Shown here one piece after another: positions 1-13,928 of a DNA stretch of 34,308 nucleotides; within the stretch, counting starts at the first letter, position 1, and every line of letters begins with the position of its first letter. Origin of the DNA: a bacterium. GTDB taxonomy: Bacteria > Electryoneota > B3-LCP. Below the pieces are notes generated by a model that was given only the letters and a program-made list of their open reading frames with translations, was not told the DNA's origin and searched no databases. The DNA lies in the NCBI GenBank assembly GCA_018812585.1, contig JAHJDJ010000087.1:1-34308 (forward strand), read 5' to 3'. The translations under genes and the position numbers were made by a program.

Positions 1-1654
1 ACTCCCCTTCATCGCCGAAGTCTGTTCCGACGGGATGCTTTCCTCAAATATTTCTTCTTGAGGTGGTGGAGGAATTGCTTCGTCCAACGAAAACTCGTAA
101 ATCGTATTTCCCTCCTCCGATATGACACGATTTACACTGTGCAGTCGGATGCCGTCCATGCCGGCAGCTAAAATTGGCACACGATCCCTGGTCACAGCTT
201 TGCCGATCATGGTGAATCCTTCTGGAGTCGAAATGATCTGATCGATCCAGATTCGATTGACAGTCTTGAAGTCCTCGGATAATTTCTCAAACAGACGACT
301 CCATTTATAAGGATCATCGATGATCGTGTTCAGAAATTCAAGGTTGGCTCTATTAATATTGATCTGACTCTGAAGCTTTCCGATAACAATCAAATCCGGT
401 TGGAGTGAGGCAATTGAACTTCTTTTAGTTTCTATTGATGCTTTGAGGTTCCTGTTTTGTATGCTGAAGTCGAAACCTTGGTAAGAAAGCACCACCATTG
501 CGACGAAAATGGTACCCAACAAAGCAAAACCATGCCAGGCGACCTTGAATGCTTTTTGAGCTTCTCTGATCGAACGCGGCATGAGGTCGACGTTGATAAA
601 ATCTTTGTTCTTCTGATCTAATGCTTCCCATGCTAGAAACTGGAATAGCAAAATTCGCGAAAACTGCCAACTCCTCATTTTTTAGACTGCTGGTGTCAAG
701 AGGACCGGGCGTTATCGGTTTGACTTCGGCGTCTGGAAATTGCCGCTGGAAAAAATCCGTCGCACGTGTCATACCGATTTCGCCGGCTAATACGATCTGT
801 TCAATCTCAGGAATTCCTGCTTCTTCCTGTTCCAGCAGGATTTTACTGAAGAGCGTCTGGCAGACCTGGGGAGATTGATACCCTTCACGAATCGCCTGGA
901 TGAAAGAGATTGGTACTGCTCCCCGCATAATAATGACGCGCGAAAAGTCGGCGCCGATATAGACCACTGCGGTAATTTTATCCTCGGGAGGATCGATTGC
1001 CATTCTAACTAAATTGGCCAGAGCAATCTCGTTCGAATTAACGCTGCAGAAGTAAGGCACTCCATTCAGGTAAGTCTTCAGATCGATCAGTTCTTCAAGA
1101 ATCGGGATCTGACCTTCTGAAACAACCGCCGTCAGTTCTTCAGATTTATTTTTAAAAGAATCAATTATAGCAGATCCCAGTGTCCCGCCTGAAAGTGAAC
1201 TGATTTCATCAGCCAGGCGCTTTTGCAGTTTCTTGCCTTTTAACCCGAAATCACTCTCAAAGGTATAATAAGTAGCCTGACCCTCTGGGATATTGACCGC
1301 GATCTGATTTTTCCTCAGCGGATAGTTTGAGAACACATTCATTATCGTGCTGGAAACGTCGCCTGACGCGGACTCCATCTCCACATTATGATTATGGGCT
1401 GGTGCTTGTGTTTCGACTGAATCATCATCGAAATCGTCCAAACCGAAAATATCGCCATTCTCATTTCCCAGCATTGCCGCTTCAGCGCCGGTCGGTGTGG
1501 TGAGTTTTCCCAATCTGGCTGGCAAAGTAATGCTCTGTAACGCATGAATCGTCAGTTCGCCTTTTTCCCAACCCAATTGAGCGATGCGCAGGTCAGCGCC
1601 GTCAACCATGACGCCCAGTACCTGCCTTATTGATGAACGACCCGGAATCTTCAT
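1..1654 (-). CDS. PilM-PilN fusion (GspL-like) pilus assembly protein, frameshifted and cut by the left window edge
   Basis: The N-terminal ~330 residues read as a PilM-like actin-fold domain, with a segment AVVYIGADFSRVIIMRGAVP resembling the second phosphate-binding turn of PilM/FtsA; the first phosphate loop is degenerate. The starting frame stays open to a stop at 425, but its last ~70 residues look non-biological. The adjacent frame is open from about 680 to base 1. It gives LAWEALDQKNKDF, a membrane segment (GFALLGTIFVAMVVL) and a periplasmic PilN-like domain ending in an acidic, proline-rich tail. The shift therefore lies between about 600 and 682, best near 636, where one extra base or two missing bases would restore the frame. 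In T4P systems PilM binds PilN in the cytoplasm and links the motor to the PilO/PilP/PilQ complex; the fused layout resembles GspL of type II secretion. The start ATG at 1654 has a short GAG six bases upstream. It is last in the visible operon, 36 bases after the PilT-like gene. Sequencing error, true disruption and programmed frameshifting all remain possible. Confidence 0.75.
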
Positions 1655-1692: not shown

Positions 1693-2964
1693 TTAATTGG
1701 AATATTCGAGTAATTCCCGCATACGGTTTTTATTGTTAGCGTGATTGATCGCTTCTTCCATAGAGATTTTCTTCTCCGTGACCAGCCTGCGAAGATCCTG
1801 CTCCAGGGTGTTCATACCCTCTTTATTGCCTTCGCTGATCATCTGATATACTTCTCCCGTGTTGTCGTTCTTGATGGCCGCTCTTACCGAAGAGTTGACC
1901 AGCAGCACCTCTTTTACCAGAGTTCGCTTACCGTCCAAAGTCGGTACGAGTTTCTGGGAAACGACTACCTTTAAAACGTCGGCCAGTCGATTTCGAACTC
2001 GTTCCTGCTCGTCTGTTGGACATTCAGCAACGATACGCGCGATCGATTCCACCGCGGATCCAGTATGCAAAGTAGAGAAGACCTTGTGGCCTGAGTCTGT
2101 GATCTCCAGTGCAGTCATAATTGTATCCCCATCCCGCATCTCACCGATCATGATAATGTCGGGATCCTGGCGTAACGACTGTACCGCACCCTCTTTAAAA
2201 CTATGTACGTCTCTGCCAATTTCACGATGTCGAATGATGCATCGATTTGATAAATGAACGCACTCAACTGGACTGGAAATGATGACGATATGAGCATCGA
2301 CCGTCTGATTGTTAGCGTCAATTATGCTGTCCAGAGTGGTTGACTTACCAGAACCTGTGATACCGGTGACCAGGACCAGACCCTGCTTTTCATATTTAAG
2401 CGAGAGTGCACGGGAGACCGCTGAGGAGAATCCTAAATTCTTAAAGGGAAAGATGGTATTGTTGATACACCTCATGTTGAGCGCCAGGTGATCCAGATCA
2501 AAGTACATGTCACCACGGAAGCGGACACTCTGTCCGTTGTGGGTAATGCCATAGGAAAAGTCGAGGTTCTTATGCTCCATCAGAAACTCAATCTGTCTGG
2601 ATGACAAAATGTTGAGATTCATGATGTTAAATTGATCAAGCGAGAAGGCGCCGAGCTCCATCGCAGGGCGCTTGTTATTGTAGATGCGGAGCCAGATCTG
2701 GCCCAGACATCCCTGGCCGCCTAAATCGATATCGGAAGCGTTGCTATCGATCATGTGGTGCAGGAAACTCTCAAAAAGCTCTCGAATTTCCTGACGTTCC
2801 GGGTCCTCAATTTCAGCTAATAAATCTGCGATAATGGTTTGGCGTTCCAAACCAGTCACATGCCGGGGAAGCTGTTTTTCTATGTTCTGGAAGATTTCCA
2901 GAACGCCGCTGTGAGGATCTGCTCCGATCAGTACATCATCGCCGAAGTCTAATACTTTATTCAT
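1693..2964 (-). CDS. PilT/PilU-like secretion-family ATPase with altered Asp box
   Basis: A 423-residue hexameric secretion ATPase of the PilT/PilU type, expected to power pilus retraction at the inner face of the cytoplasmic membrane. Visible motifs are Walker A GITGSGKST (201-209), Walker B region DPDIIMIGEMRD (267-278) and the His box GHKVFSTLHT (from 293). The Asp box, normally EDP(I/V)E, reads SSPVE (230-234): the Glu-Asp pair is replaced by Ser-Ser while the last Glu is kept. The N-terminal ~60 residues precede the usual PAS-like PilT domain and are longer than in classical PilT (~345 residues). The C-terminus lacks an evident AIRNLIRE motif typical of PilT. Start ATG follows a strong AAGGAAGG ribosome site. 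It lies between the Ig-repeat lipoprotein (13-base gap) and PilMN, so it belongs to the operon. A PilU-type accessory motor or a regulator of the PilB motor is also possible. Confidence 0.85.
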   Translation of the reverse strand: MNKVLDFGDDVLIGADPHSGVLEIFQNIEKQLPRHVTGLERQTIIADLLAEIEDPERQEIRELFESFLHHMIDSNASDIDLGGQGCLGQIWLRIYNNKRPAMELGAFSLDQFNIMNLNILSSRQIEFLMEHKNLDFSYGITHNGQSVRFRGDMYFDLDHLALNMRCINNTIFPFKNLGFSSAVSRALSLKYEKQGLVLVTGITGSGKSTTLDSIIDANNQTVDAHIVIISSPVECVHLSNRCIIRHREIGRDVHSFKEGAVQSLRQDPDIIMIGEMRDGDTIMTALEITDSGHKVFSTLHTGSAVESIARIVAECPTDEQERVRNRLADVLKVVVSQKLVPTLDGKRTLVKEVLLVNSSVRAAIKNDNTGEVYQMISEGNKEGMNTLEQDLRRLVTEKKISMEEAINHANNKNRMRELLEYSN

Positions 2965-2977
2965 CTGCAGCCTTCCT

Positions 2978-4696
2978 TTAATCTACAGTGCCTTCTATGA
3001 TCATCGAAGCATCACCGTTAGAACTCTCTACACTGATTGTGATCGCTGCCATGACTGCCGGATCTGTTTCTTCGGTATCGTCATCGTAGATTACAAAACT
3101 GAAATTGGTCCATGATACTGGATCTCTGGTATCTGGCAGTGTGAAATTAACGTCGCCTAATAAGCCGCCTGCAGTGGCTGATACTTCGATCTTTGTATCA
3201 TGCGCTAATGGGTATCCATTTTGATCCATAACCCTGTAATTGAAGGTTTTCGAATTGAACTGGTTAACCTCAAAATAGGGTGTATCGAGCAGGGCAATCT
3301 GTGTAATTCCTGAGAACAACACCTCGGTGGTTGCCGTTAGAATCTGACCTCCTTCTCCGACTGTTTGAGCTGAGATCGTTCCGAAAGGATAGGAAGCTGG
3401 AGGTATCGGTGGGCCGGAGAACAGGAGTACACTGGCAAAACCCGACGAATCAGTGGTCGCTGACCCCTGGATAATGCCTGCATCTGAGCTGTAATATACG
3501 GCAGTACCCATTGGCACTGGATTAGCGAAGACGTCACCGACCATAGCGATCATGCTATCTGTTCTGCCGAAAAAGTTGTAGCCTGGGAAGTTAATATAGC
3601 GTGGATATACGCCGAAATGAGTCAAGTCCGGCAATCCCGAATGAATTGTGATCGGTATTGGCGTTGATACGATATCTGGATCGCTGGCAAGAGAAGCCTT
3701 TATCTGAACCGCTCCTGAGATAGTGCCACTATTCAACGTCGTGTGCACCTGTCCTAAGACATCGGTTGTGTCCATATCGGGGAAGAGGTATTCACCACCG
3801 CCAGGTCCGCCGAGAATTTCAAAGTCGACTCCATAAGGTGAACTCCCTGTAATTGGAGATCCGGTGGCATCTTTTATGACAAAGTGGATCGTGCTCGACT
3901 CGTTGGCGCCTGTTCCTTTCACAGCAACTGAATCATATTCAGCTTCCAGGAATTGAATCGAATACGGAGGTCCTGTCTCGTAAATTAGAATTTCAGTAAG
4001 AACGGTAAAAGACGATGTAGTCCCAAATTGTGCCTTGATGATAACCTGGCCTGCGATGGTTCCGGCATGGAAAGTCGTATTGACTCGTCCATCGTGGTCT
4101 GTGACGTCACTTTCGGGATACAGAAAGGCGCCGCCACCAGGCGTTTCCAGAAATTCAAACAGGATTTGTGCAGTATGCAGCGAGTCGACGGGGCGATTGG
4201 AAGCATCCCAGACTTCACAGATTATTGAAGCGGTGCTGTTGCTGCTGAAACCATAAACTCCAATGGTGTCCGGCTCGATAGAAATCAGGACGATCTGTTC
4301 ACCAGGTCCTGAACCTGTGTATCCAGTATCAGTCACGGTAGAATCGAGGTAACGTTCTAACGTAACTGTGGGAATGTTGGTCGTCTCTCCCGCCTGGATG
4401 ACTGTAAACAGCCCGTACGCATAGTACCCCTCTTTATAGATTTCCAGCTCCACAGTCTCCTGTTCGCCTTTTGGCAAAGCGATGGCGAGATCATACTGGC
4501 CTGTTGAGTCGGTTAACGCTGTCTCGATATGAGTGATGGTGCGGACAAAGGCGTCAGGCGCCGGCGCCAGATTTGACGCATATTTGACCGTCCCCTGGAT
4601 GTGAGCCCAATCCTGTCCCGCTCCCAAGTCAGTTGATTGTTCTTCGCAACCTGCGAAGAGCAGAGCGATAACGAGCAGTAGTGACGTCTTTTTCAT
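2978..4696 (-). CDS. Lipoprotein with carboxypeptidase-regulatory-like and bacterial Ig-like repeats
   Basis: The start is set at the second Met (4696) because MKKTSLLLVIALLFAGC is a classic lipoprotein signal with lipobox FAGC and lipidated Cys17; an upstream in-frame TTG (4708) would add only four residues. Glu follows the Cys, so retention in the inner membrane by the +2 Asp rule is not expected. After a short linker a CarboxypepD_reg-like fold (about 33-115) is followed by at least three Ig-like units of the Big_1/invasin type (about 136-240, 244-353, 356-465). The first two share the pattern ETPGGG.FL.P...T...G.V.TT...GTI.G...IKA. Such modules usually form rods at the cell surface. It sits inside the pilus operon between DUF4900 and the PilT-like motor, suggesting a surface-exposed pilus accessory, adhesin or anchoring factor. 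No close ribosome site is visible at the ATG; an AAGGAG lies about 30 bases upstream. Exact function is unknown. Confidence 0.8.
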   Translation of the reverse strand: MKKTSLLLVIALLFAGCEEQSTDLGAGQDWAHIQGTVKYASNLAPAPDAFVRTITHIETALTDSTGQYDLAIALPKGEQETVELEIYKEGYYAYGLFTVIQAGETTNIPTVTLERYLDSTVTDTGYTGSGPGEQIVLISIEPDTIGVYGFSSNSTASIICEVWDASNRPVDSLHTAQILFEFLETPGGGAFLYPESDVTDHDGRVNTTFHAGTIAGQVIIKAQFGTTSSFTVLTEILIYETGPPYSIQFLEAEYDSVAVKGTGANESSTIHFVIKDATGSPITGSSPYGVDFEILGGPGGGEYLFPDMDTTDVLGQVHTTLNSGTISGAVQIKASLASDPDIVSTPIPITIHSGLPDLTHFGVYPRYINFPGYNFFGRTDSMIAMVGDVFANPVPMGTAVYYSSDAGIIQGSATTDSSGFASVLLFSGPPIPPASYPFGTISAQTVGEGGQILTATTEVLFSGITQIALLDTPYFEVNQFNSKTFNYRVMDQNGYPLAHDTKIEVSATAGGLLGDVNFTLPDTRDPVSWTNFSFVIYDDDTEETDPAVMAAITISVESSNGDASMIIEGTVD

Positions 4697-4809
4697 GGTC
4701 CGTCTCAAAGCTTAGTGAGGTGTATCTCCTTAATGGAGAACACGAGTGTTTGCAGCGTGAGCTGGAGATAATACAAAATGCGGGAGCGCTGCCTGCTGAT
4801 TTTTAAAAT

Positions 4810-5051: not shown

Positions 5052-6254
5052 CTATTCGTACCAGGAAATGATTGACGTGCGCGACAGAATCGGGTAAAAG
5101 GGCGGCGCCCTCTTATAGAAGCGGGCATCATATCTATAATTCTTCGAATAGCCCGATCTAATGGTAGTGTACCAGGCGGTCCCTACTGGACCTCTTTTCT
5201 CCTGGATTATACCGCCGATGACAGCCAGTGTGCCTCGCGGACCACCTTGATTATATTTCTCCACATAAAAGCTTTTGTGTAACGCCATAATTGAGGCGTA
5301 AATAGTACAGTTGGTCATATTTGCAGTCGTAGCTGAAACTACGACGTCATGCATTGCTATCAAGCCCAATATATCATCTGAAGTTGGATCGACCAGGGGA
5401 TCAGCCGCATAGAGAATATCATCGTCGATCAAGATGTCTCCATCGGCAAGAACCGTGGCTTGACCATCCAGAGTGCCTTTGACATGGATGTCTTTTGAGT
5501 TATCTGTGGCAATGACACCGTTCGTGGCGGAGAGCACGGTATTCCCGCTGGAATCCAGCGTGGCGCCAGTGTACACTTCCCAGTTGAAGGTGCCATCGCT
5601 AATAAACTCGACGTAAGTTTCGCCCGAAAACAACATTCCAGCGCTGGCAGCTTTCCCTTGGATTACTGAGAGATCAACCGGCAGATCGAGCTGTGCACTG
5701 CCGAATTGTGTCCCACCTATGAACTGAGGACTTCCAGTTCCCACCCAACCCGCGCCCACGGAGGATACTAAGCCATAAAAGACTGGATTTCCGGAAATAT
5801 GGAACTTACCATTCGTATGAATGGGCCCTCTAAGCGTATCTCCCGTGATAAAAAAAATGGGTGGTTCTGTATTACTGAAGTAAGCGAACTCAGAAAAGGG
5901 TGTGCGCCGCACTTCAACAACAGCAGTTCTTGATTCACCACAGATGTTTCCGGTCGCGGTTATACGCAAATGATCCGACGCGAGTGTCGTGTCCACAGTT
6001 GCATCTACGATGGTGACATTCCCATGACCATCCATCAAAGACAAGTTGGTGAATCCTTCGTCCCAACCATAGTTAGAACGGATTTCATTTAAACTGATAT
6101 TCACCATGCTGTTGGTAATGTTTCTCGCCGTGGCTTCAAGGTATTGGTCATTACTGAGTTCCTGTGCATCACCGCTGAGACGGTTATGATTCAGGCGCAG
6201 TATGCCGGCTACAATGGTAAAGCCGACGACAAGGATGAGTGTGAAGCGTCCCAT
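5052..6254 (-). CDS. DUF4900-type (PilX-like) pilus-associated protein
   Basis: A 400-residue protein with an N-terminal hydrophobic helix (residues 4-20) directly after Met-Gly, then a mostly beta-rich exported region. Patterns such as GDTLRGPIHTNGKFHISG, DGQATVLADGDILIDDDI and GLIAMHDVVV are typical of the DUF4900 family, whose members occur in pilus and secretion loci of Deinococcus and FCB bacteria and resemble PilX-like tip or minor components. The Met-Gly plus hydrophobic helix layout matches the other pilin-like proteins of this operon, suggesting it could be inserted into the fibre or act as a tip subunit; its size is much larger than a minor pilin. The start ATG has a strong AAGGAGGG ribosome site eight bases upstream. 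It follows the minor pilin with an 87-base gap. Assignment to DUF4900 is from memory of the family pattern. Confidence 0.65.
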   Translation of the reverse strand: MGRFTLILVVGFTIVAGILRLNHNRLSGDAQELSNDQYLEATARNITNSMVNISLNEIRSNYGWDEGFTNLSLMDGHGNVTIVDATVDTTLASDHLRITATGNICGESRTAVVEVRRTPFSEFAYFSNTEPPIFFITGDTLRGPIHTNGKFHISGNPVFYGLVSSVGAGWVGTGSPQFIGGTQFGSAQLDLPVDLSVIQGKAASAGMLFSGETYVEFISDGTFNWEVYTGATLDSSGNTVLSATNGVIATDNSKDIHVKGTLDGQATVLADGDILIDDDILYAADPLVDPTSDDILGLIAMHDVVVSATTANMTNCTIYASIMALHKSFYVEKYNQGGPRGTLAVIGGIIQEKRGPVGTAWYTTIRSGYSKNYRYDARFYKRAPPFYPILSRTSIISWYE

Positions 6255-6341: not shown

Positions 6342-6896
6342 TCAGAATAAATTACGCGGGTAGACTGTGCCGGTCCAAACAGAACGAGCGTAAACTGAAT
6401 TTACCGGCATGATGCTTTCGAAAGTCATCTCATACTCCAGATAACGGACCAGTGTCATATCCGTAACTTGATTACCGCCGGCGTCATAGTAGCGGACCTG
6501 AAAATCGGTTACTCCAAAAGTGCCGCCTATTGTGACGCCATTCAGTGTGCTATATAGAATGCTATCGTTGGGGTTTTCCGTGCCGATTGCCGCATCAGTC
6601 GTACTTAATTGATAATTTACCACATCTATGACGCCATCGTTATCTACATCAGCACGGAAGGTGATTCCACTGGTATCGCCATTGACGATCGATAACCATG
6701 GATTGGCTACGCCATAACCGATCTTACGAAAATTGAAATCCATTTCTTCTACCAGCAGAACCATGTTCTCTTGGACACTCAGCTCAAACTGGTCTTCCAG
6801 GGTCATATTGGCAAAGTTGGTGTTATAGCTTAAAATCATGATCAGCAGTAAACCACCGATAATGAACGACCCCAACATATCAAGCATCGTACTCAT
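6342..6896 (-). CDS. Minor pilin-like protein (PilW/PilV-like layout)
   Basis: A 184-residue protein with an N-terminal hydrophobic helix (MLGSFIIGGLLLIMILSYN), a helical segment (residues ~28-58) and a soluble beta-rich domain containing a calcium-like DVDNDGVID stretch (about 82-90). The layout matches minor pilins of the PilW/PilV type, which prime or sit at the tip of T4P fibres. No canonical prepilin site with Glu at +5 is present; a possible processing point is after Gly9. The ribosome site AGGAG lies in the last codons of the upstream receiver-cNMP gene, so translation is probably coupled (two-base gap). It precedes DUF4900. Confidence 0.65.
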   Translation of the reverse strand: MSTMLDMLGSFIIGGLLLIMILSYNTNFANMTLEDQFELSVQENMVLLVEEMDFNFRKIGYGVANPWLSIVNGDTSGITFRADVDNDGVIDVVNYQLSTTDAAIGTENPNDSILYSTLNGVTIGGTFGVTDFQVRYYDAGGNQVTDMTLVRYLEYEMTFESIMPVNSVYARSVWTGTVYPRNLF

Positions 6897-6898
6897 GA

Positions 6899-7762
6899 TT
6901 ATCTCCTGAGAATCCGTTCCAGATGAATGATTTGGGCGCTGGCTCTGCGCAATTTCTGATAAAATGTATTAAGAGTGTTGATGATAAAGTACTTAAATAC
7001 CTTCTCTTCATGCCGGTTGAAAAAGTCCAGAATAGCTGAACGCTCTATCACCGTTGCTGTTACAGACGTGCTGGCAATTAAAGTCTGATTTGCGGCATTT
7101 CCTCGGAAGATAAAGATTTCGCCATAACAATCGTGTTTGTGCAGCTTGAATAACTCGAATTCTTCCTGGCGTACCGAAATTTCACCTTCATGAAGGATGA
7201 TAAGATTACGGTCTATAAGACCCTCTTTGGTCAATACATCATTTGGTGAAAACGTCTGAATGGTGCCCAGATTCATGAACTCGATGATGCTTTCCTCTGA
7301 GAAATTGTGCAGCAGTGGGATGGTAGGTGTGTTTTCCTTGACGGCCGCCATAGTCTCGCTTAGCTCCTTTTTTAGACGGTCATTTTCAGCTTTAAGCTGA
7401 TGTTGCTGCAAAGCCATGCGGATCGTGATTTTTACCTCATCGAGAATGAGTGGCTTGGATAAATAATCGAAAGCGCCTCGTTTCATCGCCTCTACAGCAG
7501 AATCTACGTCCCCAAAACCGGAAAACATGATGATCGTCTGGTCAGGATCAATTTTGCGCATCTCTTCCAATAACTGCAGGCCATCCATACCAGGCATGCG
7601 AATGTCTGAAAGAACGACCTGAAAACGTTCCTTTTCAAAAAGACTCAGAGCTTCTTCGCCATTCGGTGTGGTGAAAACCTCATACTGTTCCCCTACCAGA
7701 GAGTCTTTGCAGAGATCCAGTATTTCAGCGTCATCATCGACTATCAGAATTTTGTTTTCCAT
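6899..7762 (-). CDS. Receiver-domain response regulator fused to a cyclic-nucleotide-binding-like domain
   Basis: The start is set at the second Met (7762) because GTGAG lies six bases upstream of it but directly abuts the first ATG (7768). The CheY-like receiver has acidic pocket DDD near residues 9-11, phospho-acceptor Asp53 in SDIRMPGMDG, switch Ser in FSGFG and Lys103 in LSKPL. A coiled coil (~115-140) leads to a CAP-type cNMP-fold domain (~160-260). Its phosphate-binding cassette reads GEIFIFRGNAANQT rather than the usual GE...R(A/T)A pattern, so cyclic nucleotide binding is doubtful. There is no DNA-binding domain. Its position between two minor pilin genes suggests a protein-protein output onto the pilus machine, for example onto the PilB or PilT-like motors. 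The sensor kinase is not in view. Domain calls are firm; the role is inferred. Confidence 0.85.
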   Translation of the reverse strand: MENKILIVDDDAEILDLCKDSLVGEQYEVFTTPNGEEALSLFEKERFQVVLSDIRMPGMDGLQLLEEMRKIDPDQTIIMFSGFGDVDSAVEAMKRGAFDYLSKPLILDEVKITIRMALQQHQLKAENDRLKKELSETMAAVKENTPTIPLLHNFSEESIIEFMNLGTIQTFSPNDVLTKEGLIDRNLIILHEGEISVRQEEFELFKLHKHDCYGEIFIFRGNAANQTLIASTSVTATVIERSAILDFFNRHEEKVFKYFIINTLNTFYQKLRRASAQIIHLERILRR

Positions 7763-7792
7763 TATCATCTCACTGATTGATCAACCCTGATA

Positions 7793-8305
7793 TTAGAAAT
7801 ATCCGAAAATTTGCTCTAACGTAATCGAAACCGGATCATCGCTTGCTGGATTGACCATGTAAGGCGATGTCACAGTAATCTTCAGTTTCTTAAGGAACGT
7901 CTCGGTGCCGCTGGGCGTCGAGGGATTGGTTTCCGATACGTATTCAACATTTCCAGTTATCGTGAAGGGGACAGAAGGAAAAGTCGTAGAGTCAACTATT
8001 GTAACACCATGGTAATCATCAACATCATCGAAGTTGGGAAAGCTTTCACTTCCATCTGGACCTAAATCATCATCTTCTGTCAAATCATTTGCGCTGGTTA
8101 ATCGAGCACTGATAGTCTCTTCATCAAAATCCAATCGGGATGCTTCAGTCAATATCTTTTGTGCCAGAGCAATGGCCGTTAGTTCAGCATTCGTTGAAAT
8201 GATTGTAGTCTCATTGTACATCAGAGATTCATTCAACGACGGCAGTGTCAAGCTGAATATCACCAAAGCGCCCAGCACCAGCAGCATTTGTCCTGTATTA
8301 GTCAT
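7793..8305 (-). CDS. Minor pilin-like protein
   Basis: A 170-residue protein with N-terminus MTNTGQMLLVLGALVIFSLT: a short polar leader ending in Gly5, a hydrophobic helix and then a polar helix (~30-60), the layout of a class-III-like prepilin. Cleavage after Gly would expose QMLLVLG, resembling the QQQLLLIV start of the pilin at 11812-12225. The +5 Glu of classical pilins is absent. The C-terminal domain is acidic and beta-rich without a recognised fold. It begins 12 bases after the PilB gene with an AGAGAGG ribosome site, placing it in the motor operon. It is probably a minor subunit or priming component. Confidence 0.65.
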   Translation of the reverse strand: MTNTGQMLLVLGALVIFSLTLPSLNESLMYNETTIISTNAELTAIALAQKILTEASRLDFDEETISARLTSANDLTEDDDLGPDGSESFPNFDDVDDYHGVTIVDSTTFPSVPFTITGNVEYVSETNPSTPSGTETFLKKLKITVTSPYMVNPASDDPVSITLEQIFGYF

Positions 8306-8317
8306 AATTGCACCTCT

Positions 8318-10114
8318 CTAATCCTCCGCAGTGGCAAACGCAATCTCTTCGCAATTAGCGACGCCCTCTTTGATGCGTTCGCGACCCGAGGCTCTTAATG
8401 TCAACATTTTATTCTTTACCGCTTCCGTGCGCAGGGCATCTTCATCAACTTCGTCTCCCGCATCTAATATTAATCGTCGTATTTCCCGGGTAAAAAACAA
8501 CGCTTCGTGAATGGCGGCGCGTCCCTTATAACCATTTGTGCAATGCTCACAACCAACCGCTTTATGGAAAAGAGTCGTTTCAATCTCTTCAGCAACGAAC
8601 CCCAGACTTAATGGCACCTCAAGATCCAAATCAGTATCAACTTCCTTACACTTCGGACAGAGTGTCCGAATCAACCTCTGCGCAACGATTATATTGATGG
8701 CGTAAGCGATCAGGAACGGCTCCACACCCATCTTGAACAGACGAGATACAGCGGACGGAGCATCGTTGGTATGCAGAGTAGAGAAGGTCAAGTGACCTGT
8801 GTTGGCCAGCTTGATTGCGATCTCAGCGGTCTCTTTATCACGCATTTCACCCACCATGACGATATCCGGGTCGTGACGCAGAATAGCTCTGATGGCTCCT
8901 TCAAAACCGAGGGTATGGCTGATTTTTATCTGCCGAGCGCCCTTGATGATGTATTCAACCGGATCTTCAACCGTCAGACAGTTCACTTCCGATGATAATA
9001 CCTGGTACAGCGCAGCGACCAGGGTTGTCGATTTACCAGAACCAGTCGGACCGGTCAGAATCACCATCCCCTGTGGTTTGGTAATGGCTTTCCGGAAATC
9101 CTTCTTCGCCTGGGGTTGCAATCCCAATTTATCCAAATCTGTGATGATTTTACGATCATCGAGAACACGAATAACGATGGATTCTAACTTGCGCTTGAAC
9201 TCGGTGGACACTATTGGGATGATTGATACTCTAAAACGGATCATGGTTCCGTCGATGTTGCGCTGGATATATCCGTCCTGAGCTGTCTCACGTTCAAATC
9301 GGTCTACGTTTCTTGATCGATCTTTAACCACAGCCGCCATGGCTTCTGGTTTAATTAATTCCTGAGTATGCCATAATTGCAACTTGCCATCGATGCGGAA
9401 GTAGAAGTCCGTCTTATTACCTGCTTGAGGCATGACGTGAATGTCAGAGACGCCTCTGCGAACAGCTTCTACCAGACAGCCTTCGACCAGGTTAGTCAAT
9501 AGAGATTGGTTGATTTCCTGATCTAAAGCCTCTTCATCGATGCCGTCTTCGCCGCCGCCATCTTCTATGGATTCGAAAGAGCCGGCTGATTCTTCTATGA
9601 TCTGCAGGAATTCATTCGTGGTTGGATAAACGCTCTCAATCCACTTTTTGATATTTTCCCGCTTGGCGTAAGCTAATTCAATATGCCTGAACCGCAGTTT
9701 CTTCGCAAGAACCATAATATCGCGGTTCGTAGGATCATCTGTCAAAACCAGCAAAGTATCCGGTCGATTCTCATCGATGCGAAACGGTAAGACATTACTT
9801 TGAAAGAGCTCTACTCTCTCTTTTTTACTGACACTATCATAAAGCGACTTGATGAATTGACCTTTTTTATCAGTTATTTCAAACTTTTCAAGGTCAACTT
9901 CCGGAAAAGCGTAGATCCGGGCTAATTCGAGATAAATCTCATGGCGTTCACAATTGAGATCCTCGACTAAGATTTCACCTAATTTCCGACGCGACCCTTC
10001 CTCAGCCTGCTGTAGAAGAATGGCTTTGTCCAATATATCCTGATCGATAACCCCGCGCTGGACCAGTAATTCGCCGGTACGCGTTATCTTTCTTATTTCG
10101 TCCTTTACAGCCAT
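8318..10114 (-). CDS. pilB: PilB/GspE-family pilus extension ATPase
   Basis: A 598-residue assembly motor. An N-terminal MshEN/GspE-N-like region (about 10-160; LLVQRGVIDQDILDKAI and KLGEILVE) precedes an acidic linker (180-200) and the ATPase core. Visible motifs are Walker A GPTGSGKS (355-362), Asp box EDPVEY (383-388), Walker B region DPDIVMVGEMRD (415-426), His box HLTFSTLHT (441-449) and a zinc tetracysteine site CPKC (486-489) and CEHC (522-525). All catalytic residues look intact, in contrast to the PilT-like partner. It drives polymerisation by acting on PilC. The gene starts five bases after pilC and has no strong ribosome site, suggesting translational coupling. The MshEN-like domain can bind c-di-GMP in some homologues; whether it does here cannot be judged by eye. 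Confidence 0.92.
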   Translation of the reverse strand: MAVKDEIRKITRTGELLVQRGVIDQDILDKAILLQQAEEGSRRKLGEILVEDLNCERHEIYLELARIYAFPEVDLEKFEITDKKGQFIKSLYDSVSKKERVELFQSNVLPFRIDENRPDTLLVLTDDPTNRDIMVLAKKLRFRHIELAYAKRENIKKWIESVYPTTNEFLQIIEESAGSFESIEDGGGEDGIDEEALDQEINQSLLTNLVEGCLVEAVRRGVSDIHVMPQAGNKTDFYFRIDGKLQLWHTQELIKPEAMAAVVKDRSRNVDRFERETAQDGYIQRNIDGTMIRFRVSIIPIVSTEFKRKLESIVIRVLDDRKIITDLDKLGLQPQAKKDFRKAITKPQGMVILTGPTGSGKSTTLVAALYQVLSSEVNCLTVEDPVEYIIKGARQIKISHTLGFEGAIRAILRHDPDIVMVGEMRDKETAEIAIKLANTGHLTFSTLHTNDAPSAVSRLFKMGVEPFLIAYAINIIVAQRLIRTLCPKCKEVDTDLDLEVPLSLGFVAEEIETTLFHKAVGCEHCTNGYKGRAAIHEALFFTREIRRLILDAGDEVDEDALRTEAVKNKMLTLRASGRERIKEGVANCEEIAFATAED

Positions 10115-10119
10115 AAGAT

Positions 10120-11460
10120 CTACATGCCGGGCGTTTTCGGTCGGATGACCGCCGTCTCCGAACTAACAATCGTGATCGCAGTCATTACCACCATGATCGC
10201 CATGGCGACGAAAACCTGGATCATATCGATAATATTATTTAGTTTATGGGTTGTCTCTTTTTCGTAGTAGTTCGCCACTTGCAGCGCTGTTTCCCGAATA
10301 GTGCCTGTCTCCGCGCCGGAGTGCAGCCGCTGCAAAGCATTCCGTGTAAAGACTCCGGTCTTCTCCAGAGCTTCGATCAGTCCCTTACCCTCCTTCAGCA
10401 TCATCGGTATTGCAATATCCTTAATTTGCTTTTCCATATAAGGACTACGGCACGCTTCAGCAGCAATACGAATTGCCTCCACGTTTTCACCAGAACCTGA
10501 GTATAGTGAGTGAAATACGCGGCACCAGATTTCAATCGACGTTTTATGCATCAAGGTGCCGACAACCGGAACCTTGATCATGTACTTTGACAGGAGAAAC
10601 CTTCCCTTAGTTGTGATGACCATTCTGGTAATCACTGCCGCGACTATCGATATGCTGCCAATAATCCATATAGCATTTGACTGCAGCCAACCAGATAAGG
10701 CTAATGTCCCCGCAGTCATGGGTGGCAGATCAATGTCGAATTTCAAGAACATATTGGCCGTCTCGGGGAAGATATAGGCCACGTAAAACAGCACCGCGCC
10801 TAACAGAGCCAACACGACGACCGCCGGCATGATCATAGCGCTTTTCAGGTTCTTTTTGAATTCTTCATTACGTTCGAGAAATTTAGCAGTCGATTCGTAG
10901 ATCTCGACCATGTTACCCGATTTTGATGCAACTCCCAGCATATGCGCAGGGAATTTTCCTAAACTATCCGCCTGCTTGCCGAAAACTTCGGTGCCGTCCT
11001 TACCGTCTTTCAGGTCCTGATGAATCTCCTTCAATGTCTGCTTTAGCGCCTTATTGTCAATGTCATTGGAAAGGAGATTCAGAATTTCGTCGTACGGTAG
11101 TTTCTCACGCAGAAGATCCGCAGACAAACGGATAAACATCACGATGTCCTTTGCCGGAGGTTTTACCTTGAATTCGATGACTTTTTTCTGGATGGATTGG
11201 ACTGTGTATCCCATCTTTTCCAGCGCCCGCCTGACTTCATCGGCGTTGAATGCCTTCTGCTGACCAGCCAAAGCGGCTTCTTTTCCTTTGCGAACCTTGT
11301 AGACGAAGGTTGATTTGCGCTCCAGCTTCTTCAATCGGAAGCGGCGCTGTTTAGCGATATCTTCTGCGCGCTTCTGAGCATCCCTTTTGTTCTTTGCAGA
11401 AAGAATGCCCTGAACCACACGACCGGAAACCGCTATGCCCTGGTATCTAAATTCAGCCAT
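10120..11460 (-). CDS. pilC: PilC/GspF-family inner-membrane platform protein
   Basis: The start is placed at MAEFRYQG (11460), which matches the usual N-terminus of PilC; the in-frame GTG at 11472 would add MWTL. A variable N-terminal region (~1-100) with a basic stretch is followed by two T2SSF domains with membrane segments around PAVVVLALLGAVLFYVAYIF, AIWIIGSISIVAAVITRMV and the C-terminal VFVAMAIMVVMTAITIV. Conserved patterns such as LLREKLPYDEIL, ASKSGNMVEIYE and RLHSGAETGTI agree with the family. At 446 residues it is slightly longer than typical PilC (~400). PilC is the membrane rotor on which PilB and PilT act. It is the first gene after the 350-base leader following the pilin gene. 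Confidence 0.92.
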   Translation of the reverse strand: MAEFRYQGIAVSGRVVQGILSAKNKRDAQKRAEDIAKQRRFRLKKLERKSTFVYKVRKGKEAALAGQQKAFNADEVRRALEKMGYTVQSIQKKVIEFKVKPPAKDIVMFIRLSADLLREKLPYDEILNLLSNDIDNKALKQTLKEIHQDLKDGKDGTEVFGKQADSLGKFPAHMLGVASKSGNMVEIYESTAKFLERNEEFKKNLKSAMIMPAVVVLALLGAVLFYVAYIFPETANMFLKFDIDLPPMTAGTLALSGWLQSNAIWIIGSISIVAAVITRMVITTKGRFLLSKYMIKVPVVGTLMHKTSIEIWCRVFHSLYSGSGENVEAIRIAAEACRSPYMEKQIKDIAIPMMLKEGKGLIEALEKTGVFTRNALQRLHSGAETGTIRETALQVANYYEKETTHKLNNIIDMIQVFVAMAIMVVMTAITIVSSETAVIRPKTPGM

Positions 11461-11718
11461 TAACGTCCACAATCGGGTTGTTTCAAAAATGATTCCAAAC
11501 TATCTAACGATCCATAAAGACAGTGCTTTAAAGATAATTGTTCCTTATAAATACAAAAAAGCAGGTCCTGTTGATCATCGCAGGCAGATTTCCCTGGAGA
11601 GGATCGTTCAGACATGCTGGAGTTTGGGCAGATTTTATTTCCTTTTTTCATGACAGCGATTCTAATAGCGTGGACTGAAACTGAATATCGCTAATAACCC
11701 CGTAATTATAACATCGAG
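11461..11718 (-). other. Leader region upstream of pilC without a recognised gene
   Basis: Together with the hairpin at 11719-11748 this fills the 350 bases between the pilin stop and pilC. A 63-codon minus-strand frame starting at 11651 overlaps the pilC start, has an unremarkable composition and is not called. No sigma-54 element was found. A TATAAT-like hexamer on the minus strand near 11703-11708 lacks a -35 box. The stretch may simply be a long 5' leader for pilC, transcribed from the pilin promoter by read-through. Confidence 0.3.
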
Positions 11719-11811: not shown

Positions 11812-12225
11812 CTACCGGGTTGATATAGTCATGTCAATACTGTCAGCCCATACCTGAATAGTAGCTGTACAGTTTGTACCGTCACCGTCGCCATCTTCGG
11901 TTCCAACACCTGTAAGAGTCACGGACGTGGCGCTACCAGCAGTGCTGATTGTGTAGGCGCCGTTTTCATTGGTAGGTTGCGTGGTCAGGAATTCCATTCC
12001 AGCCGCACTAGCTGCCAGCAGTACAAATGAACCACCGCCACCACCCATGGCAAGCGGGCGACGGAAATGCTGCTGTGCACGTGATGCCAGGTTAATCAAG
12101 TCTGCTGTTACCGCGTCCAGATTCGAAGAAGCGGCCTGATCGTTGAACATGTTAATACCGACGACGACTGCGATACCAACGATGATGACTGATAAGACGA
12201 TCAGTAAGAGTTGTTGTTGTCCCAT
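11812..12225 (-). CDS. Probable major pilin subunit of a non-canonical type IV pilus
   Basis: A 137-residue protein starting MGQQQLLLIVLSVIIVGIAV: a two-residue leader ending in Gly, three Gln, a long hydrophobic helix, then a polar amphipathic helix (~28-55) and a glycine-rich stretch MGGGGGSF (~60-67) ahead of a small Thr/Ser-rich beta domain. The layout and size fit a pilin, but the Glu at +5 of the mature form and the Phe at +1 are missing. I recall similar MGQQQLLL proteins next to pilB/pilC in FCB-type genomes; this is memory, not a search. It has its own sigma-54-type promoter, a strong ribosome site (GGAGG, five bases from ATG) and a GC-rich hairpin downstream, all consistent with the most abundant product of the locus. 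Major-subunit status is inferred from those signals. Confidence 0.75.
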   Translation of the reverse strand: MGQQQLLLIVLSVIIVGIAVVVGINMFNDQAASSNLDAVTADLINLASRAQQHFRRPLAMGGGGGSFVLLAASAAGMEFLTTQPTNENGAYTISTAGSATSVTLTGVGTEDGDGDGTNCTATIQVWADSIDMTISTR

Positions 12226-12293
12226 GATTCCTCCGTTACAATGTTATTATGATTTGAGTGAATTTAGTCCCATTCGCTTTCGAGTTGATAATA

Positions 12294-12309
12294 GACAAAT
12301 CCCGTGCCA
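12294..12309 (-). promoter_or_regulatory. Sigma-54 (-24/-12) promoter of the pilin gene
   Basis: Minus-strand sequence TGGCACGGGATTTGTC matches the consensus TGGCACG-N4-TTGC with a single change (TTGT for TTGC) and the exact 10-base spacing between the GG and G(C) elements. A start near 12283 would leave a leader of about 58 bases before the pilin ATG. An NtrC-family activator is encoded immediately upstream. Confidence 0.8.
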
Positions 12310-12533: not shown

Positions 12534-13928
12534 CTACCCGGATACCAGTTCCTCTACAAGGTTTGCTGGTGAAATTCCAAGTTGTTTCATCTTGCGATGA
12601 TAGTTCTGCCGAGGTAAACCAGCGCTGCGTGCCGCGTCAGTTACGCAGCCGTCATGTCTGCTTAGTATTTCCAGCAGATATCGCTTTTCAAACTGCTTCT
12701 TGGCGACATGAATGGGTAGATCCATTATCTCCGAAACCCAGTCATGTCCCTTAAAGGTAGGAGTATCAACAAAATCATTCGGTCCCAGAGCTTGCTTTTC
12801 TGTCAGTGCGACAGTTCGTTCAACCCTGTTCTCCAGTTCCCGAACATTTCCAGGCCAATCGTGAGCGCATAATTGCCTGATTGCTTCAGGGGTAATTTCC
12901 TTAATATCCTTAGCGAATGCGTCTGCATACTTTTTAAGAAAATACCTGGCAAGAATGGGTATATCTTCGCGACGCTCCCTTAAAGGAGGTAATGATAAAG
13001 TTATGACATTCAACCGAAAATACAGATCTTTTCGGAATCTTCCCCCTTCTACTTCAATTTCAAGGTCTTTATTCGTCGCGGCGATCAACCGAATATTACA
13101 AGAAACTTCTTCGTCACCGCCGACACGCTGAAAAGAGCGATTCTGCAAAACGCGGAGTAGCTTCACCTGGAGTGGCTGGGGCATATCGCCTACCTCGTCC
13201 AGGAAAAGAGTGCCTTCATGCGCCTCTTCGAAATACCCTTTAACGCGGTGTGTCGCGCCAGTAAAGGCTCCCTTCTCATGTCCGAATAGGAGCGATTCAA
13301 GAAGCCCTTCAGGTAATCCCCCTGAATTGACGCTGATGAAGGGACCATTCGATCGCTTGCTGTTGCGCTGCAGGGTTTTAGCGATTAATTCCTTTCCAGT
13401 ACCGGTTTCACCGGTTATCAGGACGGTCGCATCGATCGGAGCGATCTTCTTCACTAAAGAAAAGACCTCCTGCATCGCCGGGCTGGCGCTGATTAAACCA
13501 TCCAGTTGAAAGCGTTCTTCAAGCTGCTTTTTCAAAAATCTATTTTCCAGACGCACTCTGGCCACCTCAATCAGACGTTGTGCCGCAAGGTTGACTTCAT
13601 CGATATCACGAAACGGCTTTTCCAGGTAATCCTCAGCGCCGGCCTTCATCGCCTGAACCGCCATGGAAATATTTCCATAAGCGCTCATCATGATGATCGC
13701 TGTTTCAGGCGATATCTTTTTAATGCGCGGCAACAGCTCCAGACCTGTGATGTCTGGCATCTTGATATCGAGGAAAATCAGATCGTAGGGATTTCGCCTG
13801 ATTACCTCCAGTACTTTGTGAGGATCAGTTTGCCATTCGACGATCCATTTCTGATCCTCCAGAGCTTCTGCTAAAAGGATGCAGATATCGGCTTCGTCGT
13901 CGACAATCAGGATTCTTGCTGAGTGCAT
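12534..13928 (-). CDS. PilR-like NtrC-family sigma-54-dependent response regulator
   Basis: A 464-residue three-domain activator. The receiver domain has acidic residues DDE near 10-12, phospho-acceptor Asp54 in FLDIKMPD and Lys104 in LEKPF. The AAA+ domain has Walker A GETGTGKE (173-180), the sigma-54 contact loop GAFTGA (220-225), Walker B LFLDEVGD (241-248) and the arginine-finger region FRKDLYFRLNV. A Fis-type helix-turn-helix closes the protein (CVTDAARSAGLPRQNYHRKM, about 429-448). It is the first gene of the pilus locus, 308 bases upstream of a pilin gene that has a good -24/-12 promoter and clustered CTGTC boxes, so it probably activates pilin transcription. A perfect TATAAT (13952-13957, minus) lies 24 bases upstream of the ATG without an obvious -35. 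No PilS-like kinase is adjacent. Confidence 0.9.
   Translation of the reverse strand: MHSARILIVDDEADICILLAEALEDQKWIVEWQTDPHKVLEVIRRNPYDLIFLDIKMPDITGLELLPRIKKISPETAIIMMSAYGNISMAVQAMKAGAEDYLEKPFRDIDEVNLAAQRLIEVARVRLENRFLKKQLEERFQLDGLISASPAMQEVFSLVKKIAPIDATVLITGETGTGKELIAKTLQRNSKRSNGPFISVNSGGLPEGLLESLLFGHEKGAFTGATHRVKGYFEEAHEGTLFLDEVGDMPQPLQVKLLRVLQNRSFQRVGGDEEVSCNIRLIAATNKDLEIEVEGGRFRKDLYFRLNVITLSLPPLRERREDIPILARYFLKKYADAFAKDIKEITPEAIRQLCAHDWPGNVRELENRVERTVALTEKQALGPNDFVDTPTFKGHDWVSEIMDLPIHVAKKQFEKRYLLEILSRHDGCVTDAARSAGLPRQNYHRKMKQLGISPANLVEELVSG

Follow-up and report, generated by a model that had tools for sequence, protein, structure and literature searches.

The DNA analyzed here (the window) is a stretch of 34,308 nucleotides that constitutes the entire contig C319 of genome G000. 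Read along its minus strand, the window carries genes for a pilin, PilC, PilB, a small one-helix protein, a response regulator, a protein beginning MSTMLD, a DUF4900-like protein, an Ig-like protein, a PilT-like protein and a PilM-like protein, in that order, after which the contig ends. The features of this region are as follows.

12534-13928, minus strand: NtrC-type (PilR-like) response regulator just upstream of the pilin, as judged from sequence alone
12294-12309, minus strand: sigma-54-like -24/-12 element TGGCACGGGATTTGTC, a motif also seen upstream of the pilin genes of some relatives
12230-12234, minus strand: putative ribosome-binding site GGAGG directly 5′ of the pilin ATG, its position read from the sequence
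11812-12225, minus strand: predicted leaderless major pilin, 137 aa; conserved family with an AlphaFold2 pilin fold (mean pLDDT 88.4)
10120-11472, minus strand: PilC/GspF inner-membrane platform protein (PF00482, E 1.1e-31)
8318-10114, minus strand: PilB/GspE assembly ATPase (PF00437, E 9.6e-101; TIGR02538, E 4.6e-126, under the model cut-off)
7793-8305, minus strand: putative leaderless minor pilin in the PilV/GspI position (MTNTGQMLLVLGA); 18 of 20 relatives lack an upstream in-frame start
6899-7768, minus strand: response regulator carrying a cNMP-binding domain, encoded within the operon (PF00072, E 8.8e-30; PF00027, E 1.9e-9)
6342-6896, minus strand: predicted leaderless minor pilin of the GspJ/XcpW type (MSTMLDMLGSF) with Asp at the Glu5 position (AlphaFold2 mean pLDDT 88.3)
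5052-6254, minus strand: putative leaderless protein in the PilX/GspK position (MGRFTLIL), DUF4900-like (PF16241, E 4e-5, under cut-off)
2978-4708, minus strand: Ig-like (Big_1/invasin-like), lipoprotein-like protein, present in the operon of near relatives
1693-2964, minus strand: PilT-like retraction ATPase (TIGR01420, E 3.7e-94; 315.8 bits against a cut-off of 319.1)
425-1654, minus strand: PilM-like protein with an apparent frameshift near 620 in this assembly

The PilM-like frame closes early, and from about position 620 to the contig start another frame continues a PilN-like part, a pattern that suggests one frameshift, whether arising in assembly or real. The PilT-like protein is 56% identical to a PilT-like protein of Stygiobacter. 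The Ig-like gene is also found in the pilus operons of loci L026, L028, L030 and L031, and its product may be an adhesin attached to the pilus.

Scanning named genomes for the MGQQQ protein, as we call the product of the pilin gene, identified 323 relatives, and the loci of the best 80 of these were read. They come mostly from MAGs labeled LCP-89, KSB1, Calditrichota, Ignavibacteria, Kryptonia, Cloacimonadota and Latescibacterota, plus Stygiobacter electus, and include near-duplicates among L004-L010 and L026-L031/L097. In a separate search for relatives, 15 of 61 genomes proved to carry it. When window proteins were compared by tblastn with the 80 loci, many of which lie on contigs that are short or cut by ends, matches were obtained for PilC at 67, PilB at 58, PilT at 54 (a count that includes cross-matches to PilB) and PilM at 30. 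The window contig ends before the position occupied in relatives by a secretin gene, which matches PF00263 in Stygiobacter (E 1e-22) and has homologs in 9 of 10 stretches.

The sigma-54-like element, TGGCAY-N5-TTGY and often with TTGT in place of TTGC, sits between the NtrC-type regulator gene and the pilin gene. It resembles the sigma-54 consensus, and sigma-54 control of this kind has a precedent in PilR and pilA. Of 78 upstream sequences of pilin genes, 23 contain the motif, compared with a mean of 0.03 and a maximum of 1 after shuffling (L039 and L053 have no upstream DNA and were excluded). A scan of the window alone gives 42 matches against 42.9 expected, which is not above chance.

Gene start and N-terminus of the major pilin

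The translation of 11812-12225 begins MGQQQLLLIVLSVIIVGIAVVVGINMF... (MGQQQLLLIVL...). As the original prediction for this DNA had stated, a Gly precedes the hydrophobic helix, position +1 is neither Phe nor Met, and Glu is missing at +5; indeed, residues 1 to 27 contain no acidic residue at all. An in-frame stop codon lies six codons 5′ of the ATG (the intervening codons read HCNGGI), making a longer leader impossible from the window DNA, and the GGAGG sequence occurs in the context GTAACGGAGGAATCATGGGA.

Start codons among 80 MGQQQ pilin genes, the window's included, are ATG in 75, TTG in two, GTG in one and ATA in two. The ATA codons, in L033 and L098, replace ATG at the conserved start position and reflect either sequencing error or an unusual start. 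A loosely defined Shine-Dalgarno-like sequence precedes 78 of the 80 genes. A leader supplied by an upstream start codon, which by the original prediction's own account would have overturned it, is ruled out, since 75 of the 80 genes have no in-frame start upstream and the extensions available to the others (L029, L032, L057, L081 and L094) are not conserved. The distant relative L023 (E 4.8e-4) has a longer N-terminus with room for a leader.

Conservation of the N-terminal Gly and of a glycine-rich stretch had been offered as a check on that prediction, and both are borne out. In 79 aligned relatives drawn from several lineages of the FCB group (L052, whose match begins inside the protein, was left out), Gly2 and Gln5 are invariant, Gln4 is present in 78, and residue 3 is Gln in 63 or Thr in 16. 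The GGGG stretch is kept as well, with Gly62 invariant across 94 rows; the alignment, A1, leaves out the weak matches L017 and L023. The N-terminal pattern is more than chance. The best reading is that the MGQQQ N-terminus as translated is the mature one or lies within about two residues of it.

Some genomes hold several such genes. A second paralog in the window's own genome (L021; G000:C94:2095-2496) has a GTG start and begins MGSTQMFMLVL, and like paralogs exist in G002, G003 and G005. G068, G128, G303 and others have up to 11 matches per genome to the MGQQQ-type pilin profile, several of them in tandem. Close homologs L029 and L032 lie in MAGs labeled Patescibacteria and Kerfeldbacteria, where PilC was not found in the locus, and may reflect misbinning or transfer.

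Predicted fold of the major pilin

AlphaFold2 modeling with 94 aligned members yields a structure with a mean pLDDT of 88.4, in which a helix spanning residues 2 to 55 is followed by four strands. In structural comparisons with VIA-align, the model is closest to Thermus thermophilus PilA4 (Z 9.6; 4.1 Å over 111 aligned residues) and Neisseria meningitidis PilV (Z 9.4), with Pseudomonas aeruginosa PilE (Z 9.1) and PAK pilin (Z 7.9) also among the top matches, and the best twenty matches are without exception pilins or pilin fusions. Foldseek gives a weak best match, again to PAK pilin (E 0.026). The protein has no close solved relatives: profile matches to the PDB are weak (geopilin E 0.059, PilE 0.085, PilA5 0.14) and appear amid ribosomal S2, and no Pfam pilin family exceeds its cut-off, ComP_DUS coming nearest (E 0.0016; 19.7 bits versus 27.3). 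On the model, the window pilin is predicted to have a type IV pilin fold.

Residue 1 of PAK pilin is opposite residue 4 of the model, and several other pilins show the same offset of three where their alignment with the model begins. If Met is removed, the MGQQQ protein would thus exceed a processed classical pilin by two residues, and Leu8 would take the place of Glu5.

Minor pilins

The original prediction pointed to two companion proteins with the same Gly-then-hydrophobic N-terminus, and both exist, at 7793-8305 (MTNTGQMLLVLGAL) and 5052-6254 (MGRFTLILVVGF). It had not listed a fourth pilin-like N-terminus, that of 6342-6896 (MSTMLDMLGSFIIGGLLLI), which has an acidic residue near its start. 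The gene order and N-terminus of 7793-8305 suggest that it is a minor pilin. Upstream in-frame starts are absent in 20 of 21 GspJ-like, 18 of 20 PilV-like and all 18 PilX-like relatives. Leaders on the minor pilins are rejected as a general explanation, with an upstream in-frame start in just 3 of 59 genes (L031 and L096, PilV-like; L067, GspJ-like).

The acidic residue of the MSTMLD family is present in the window protein and all 21 relatives (21 Asp and one Glu); it lies five residues past Met in 13 sequences and seven past it in 9. The model of 6342-6896 matches ten GspJ-type entries, including GspJ, XcpW, EpsJ and TTHA1219, at Z 10.7 to 13.5; below these come a minor pilin at Z 3.7 and unrelated entries from 3.4. 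In several of these GspJ-type entries, others being numbered differently, model residue n is opposite mature residue n-1 (33/32, 34/33, 36/35 and 40/39), and the initiator Met therefore appears to take the place of the prepilin Gly at -1. If Met is counted as -1 in this way, the acidic residue coincides with the classical Glu5.

Methionine aminopeptidase tolerates a small residue at position 2 (Gly, Ala or Ser). That position in the GspJ-like proteins is Ser, Ala, Gly or Asn, and is one of Gly, Ala and Ser in 21 of 22. It is less uniform in the PilV-like and PilX-like sets, and some proteins have a residue unfavorable to Met removal: Asn, Ile, Met (some PilV-like) or Phe (5 of 18 PilX-like).

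These alignments do not favor the two-residue leader, cleaved at Gly, that had been proposed for the major pilin. The +1 residue of PAK pilin faces residue 4 and not residue 3, and in the GspJ-like pilin it is the residue after Met (Ser, Ala, Gly or Asn) that aligns with +1. Because the structural register and the GspJ-like alignment both oppose cleavage after Gly, Gly2 more probably belongs to the mature N-terminus.

Prepilin peptidase among carrier genomes

The window's own genome encodes one prepilin peptidase (PilD, on contig C361), and PilD is present in 37 of the 39 genomes of its phylum. For this genome, the argument that no peptidase is needed depends on relatives. The single gene there that matches PF07963 is not the window pilin but a GFTLIE pilin on another contig. 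That gene (L001, G000:C156; KDKGFTLIEVLIVV), the sole N_methyl-type pilin gene found in this genome, has a PilT-like ATPase frame behind it, which points to a second, conventional system.

Profile tallies cover 50 carrier genomes out of those holding the 80 loci. PF01478 is found in 18 of these, and PF06750 adds G087, where the gene is truncated at the end of a contig; both profiles are absent from 31, a figure that counts G075, where PF06750 matches only under cut-off, as lacking a peptidase. PF07963 is detected in 17 of the 50, comprising 15 of the 19 genomes with a peptidase and two weak single matches among the 31 without. A search of the 80 pilin loci with the window genome's PilD as query found no PilD within them.

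A similar distribution is seen in the class to which G104 belongs, where 245 genomes include 128 with the pilin, 12 with PF01478 and 18 with PF07963. All 12 PF01478 genomes carry the MGQQQ pilin, leaving 116 of the 128 carriers without this peptidase in the genomes as assembled, and 112 carriers lack both PF01478 and PF07963. In each of the 12, PilD lies 0.6 to 1.2 kb from a leader-bearing class III (N_methyl, PF07963) gene.

Five carriers (G216, G141, G276, G279 and G250) are assembled as single contigs as long as a full genome, and in these PF01478 searches to E 10 returned nothing over the cut-off, only matches below it. The stretches from G216, G276, G279 and G250 hold a pilin pair, PilC, PilB, PilT, PilM, PilO and a secretin, with two MGQQQ pilins ahead of PilC-PilB-PilT-PilM-PilO-PilQ in G250; that from G141 holds only a pilin. 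Incomplete assembly as the reason for a missing PilD fits G087 only, and not the five single-contig genomes.

The original prediction had left a choice between unprocessed pilins and a different processing enzyme, and had suggested looking for a prepilin peptidase in related genomes. That search gives a divided answer, with the enzyme absent from 31 of 50 carriers and from 116 of 128 in the G104 class, and present in the window's own genome. Together with the conserved leaderless N-terminus, the absence from those 31 carriers supports the first arm of the choice only.

Discussion

Gene structure, conservation, the operon, predicted folds and peptidase absence were each computed, and from them we propose, with a probability a little above three in four, that the locus encodes a type IVa-like pilus built from subunits synthesized in mature form, with no need for prepilin peptidase or N-methylation. 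The major pilin would be made without a leader peptide, its N-terminus at, or about two residues from, the mature one. How the subunits are inserted, trimmed, assembled and retracted we infer as follows. Sec/SRP would insert the hydrophobic helix with the N-terminus in the cytoplasm, and methionine aminopeptidase would probably cut the initiator Met off subunits that have a small residue 2. Going by the parts list, PilC and PilB would build the filament, which the PilT-like ATPase would retract through the secretin. The invariant Gln5 nearby may, speculatively, substitute for Glu5 in N-terminal hydrogen bonding, while the GspJ-like pilin, as a tip subunit, would retain an acidic residue at the Glu5 place. 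Against this proposal stand the PilD of the window's own genome and of most of its phylum, the apparent register of the major pilin, two residues off that of classical pilins, the residues at position 2 of some minor pilins that look unfavorable to Met removal, and the longer N-terminus of the distant relative L023, which might include a leader. We also lean, with less assurance, toward a broader form of the proposal, in which several phyla of the FCB group would have a whole type IV pilus branch with all subunits encoded mature, general Met removal having replaced the peptidase. Type IV filaments could then form with neither the peptidase nor N-methylation, and a major pilin could polymerize through a Gln-rich N-terminus that stands in for Glu5.

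The apparatus might instead be a type II-like secretion pseudopilus and not a retractable surface pilus. The fold of the minor pilin is nearest to that of GspJ/XcpW from type II secretion systems, and the PilC-like protein is closest to GspF in NCBIfam; even so, we consider a pseudopilus unlikely, given that the operon holds a PilT-like ATPase (TIGR01420, E 3.7e-94) and a PilM-like gene and that a sigma-54-like promoter lies 5′ of the pilin. The leaderless argument is unaffected by the filament type.

It is improbable, in our judgment, that a divergent or unrelated peptidase cuts after Gly2, which would make MG a minimal leader and give a mature Gln start, perhaps as pyroglutamate. In its favor, Gly2 is invariant (79 of 79), such an enzyme might escape the two profiles used, and the Methanococcus maripaludis pilin begins with a modified Gln (PMC4471445). 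PF01478 and PF06750 are nevertheless absent in 31 of 50 carriers, the GspJ-like pilin aligns at +1 with the residue that follows its Met (Ser, Ala, Gly or Asn), and the PAK pilin alignment places residue 4 there.

Processing of the window pilin by the PilD of its own genome, with the pili of PilD-less relatives being nonfunctional, is very unlikely, although G000 and 37 of the 39 genomes of the phylum do encode PilD. An identical N-terminus is kept by 116 carriers of another class that lack PF01478, operons are complete in the PilD-less genomes G216, G276, G279 and G250, and the PilD genes of that other class adjoin leader-bearing genes in 12 of 12 cases. Known leaders, moreover, are 6 to 26 residues long (PMC4471445).

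That we are dealing with an ordinary membrane protein and no filament subunit, with homologs outside pilus loci as the original prediction's own counter-case had it, is hardly credible even with no Pfam pilin family over cut-off (ComP_DUS, E 0.0016, 19.7 versus 27.3 bits), because PilC lies near 67 of the 80 loci, the predicted fold is that of a pilin with pilins or pilin fusions as its twenty best VIA-align matches, and copies occur in tandem.

Relation to known systems

As described in PMC4471445, a class III signal peptide and a prepilin peptidase are general features of type IV filaments, pilins are usually recognized by this signal peptide, Glu5 mutants fail to form homopolymers, and Nanoarchaeota are named as the group without a detected peptidase. 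Of the features that define such filaments, a PilB/GspE-type ATPase, a PilC/GspF platform, PilT, a secretin (in relatives) and a predicted pilin fold are present in the system described here. A class III signal peptide (a leader of 6 to 26 residues ending in Gly) and the Glu5 of the major pilin are missing, and many carriers have no prepilin peptidase in the genome, while the window's own genome has one. With the machine in place and leader, peptidase and Glu5 wanting in this manner, we would class the system as a leaderless form of the type IVa pilus. We found no description of a leaderless, peptidase-free pilus in the open-license PMC literature, a scope that excludes preprints. If the proposal is true, a basic rule of type IV pilus building changes, in that the trimming enzyme is not essential. 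Leaderless systems would also open to experiment the old question of how leader removal, N-methylation and Glu5 each serve assembly, and cultured hosts of the MGQQQ-type system exist.

Systems without leader and peptidase would escape standard annotation, as apparently happened in Melioribacter roseus, for which PMC3534657 reports that pilA and pilD were not found. The pil genes of M. roseus are probably the same system, and we propose that its missing pilA is the MGQQQ gene, with PilD apparently unnecessary.

MSH pilins carry leaders. MSH pilus loci are like those described here in having no prepilin peptidase in the locus (Denise 2019, PMC6668835), and differ in that they may borrow the peptidase of a different system in their genome. 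GspJ/XcpW of type II secretion systems and TTHA1219 of T. thermophilus resemble the 6342-6896 protein in predicted fold and in having an acidic residue as mature residue 5, whereas the 6342-6896 protein has Met at -1 in place of a leader of six or more residues ending in Gly. Some archaeal type IV pilins have Gln near the N-terminus. Glu5 is often absent from archaeal type IV pilins too (PMC4471445), but these pilins possess a leader and a prepilin peptidase. The closest likeness is to the type IVa pilus, with which the system shares both ATPases, the platform, PilM-like and PilO-like proteins, the secretin, the predicted pilin fold and the sigma-54-like promoter, and from which it differs in that the major and minor pilins appear to be leaderless, the major pilin is without Glu5 and the peptidase is missing from many carriers.
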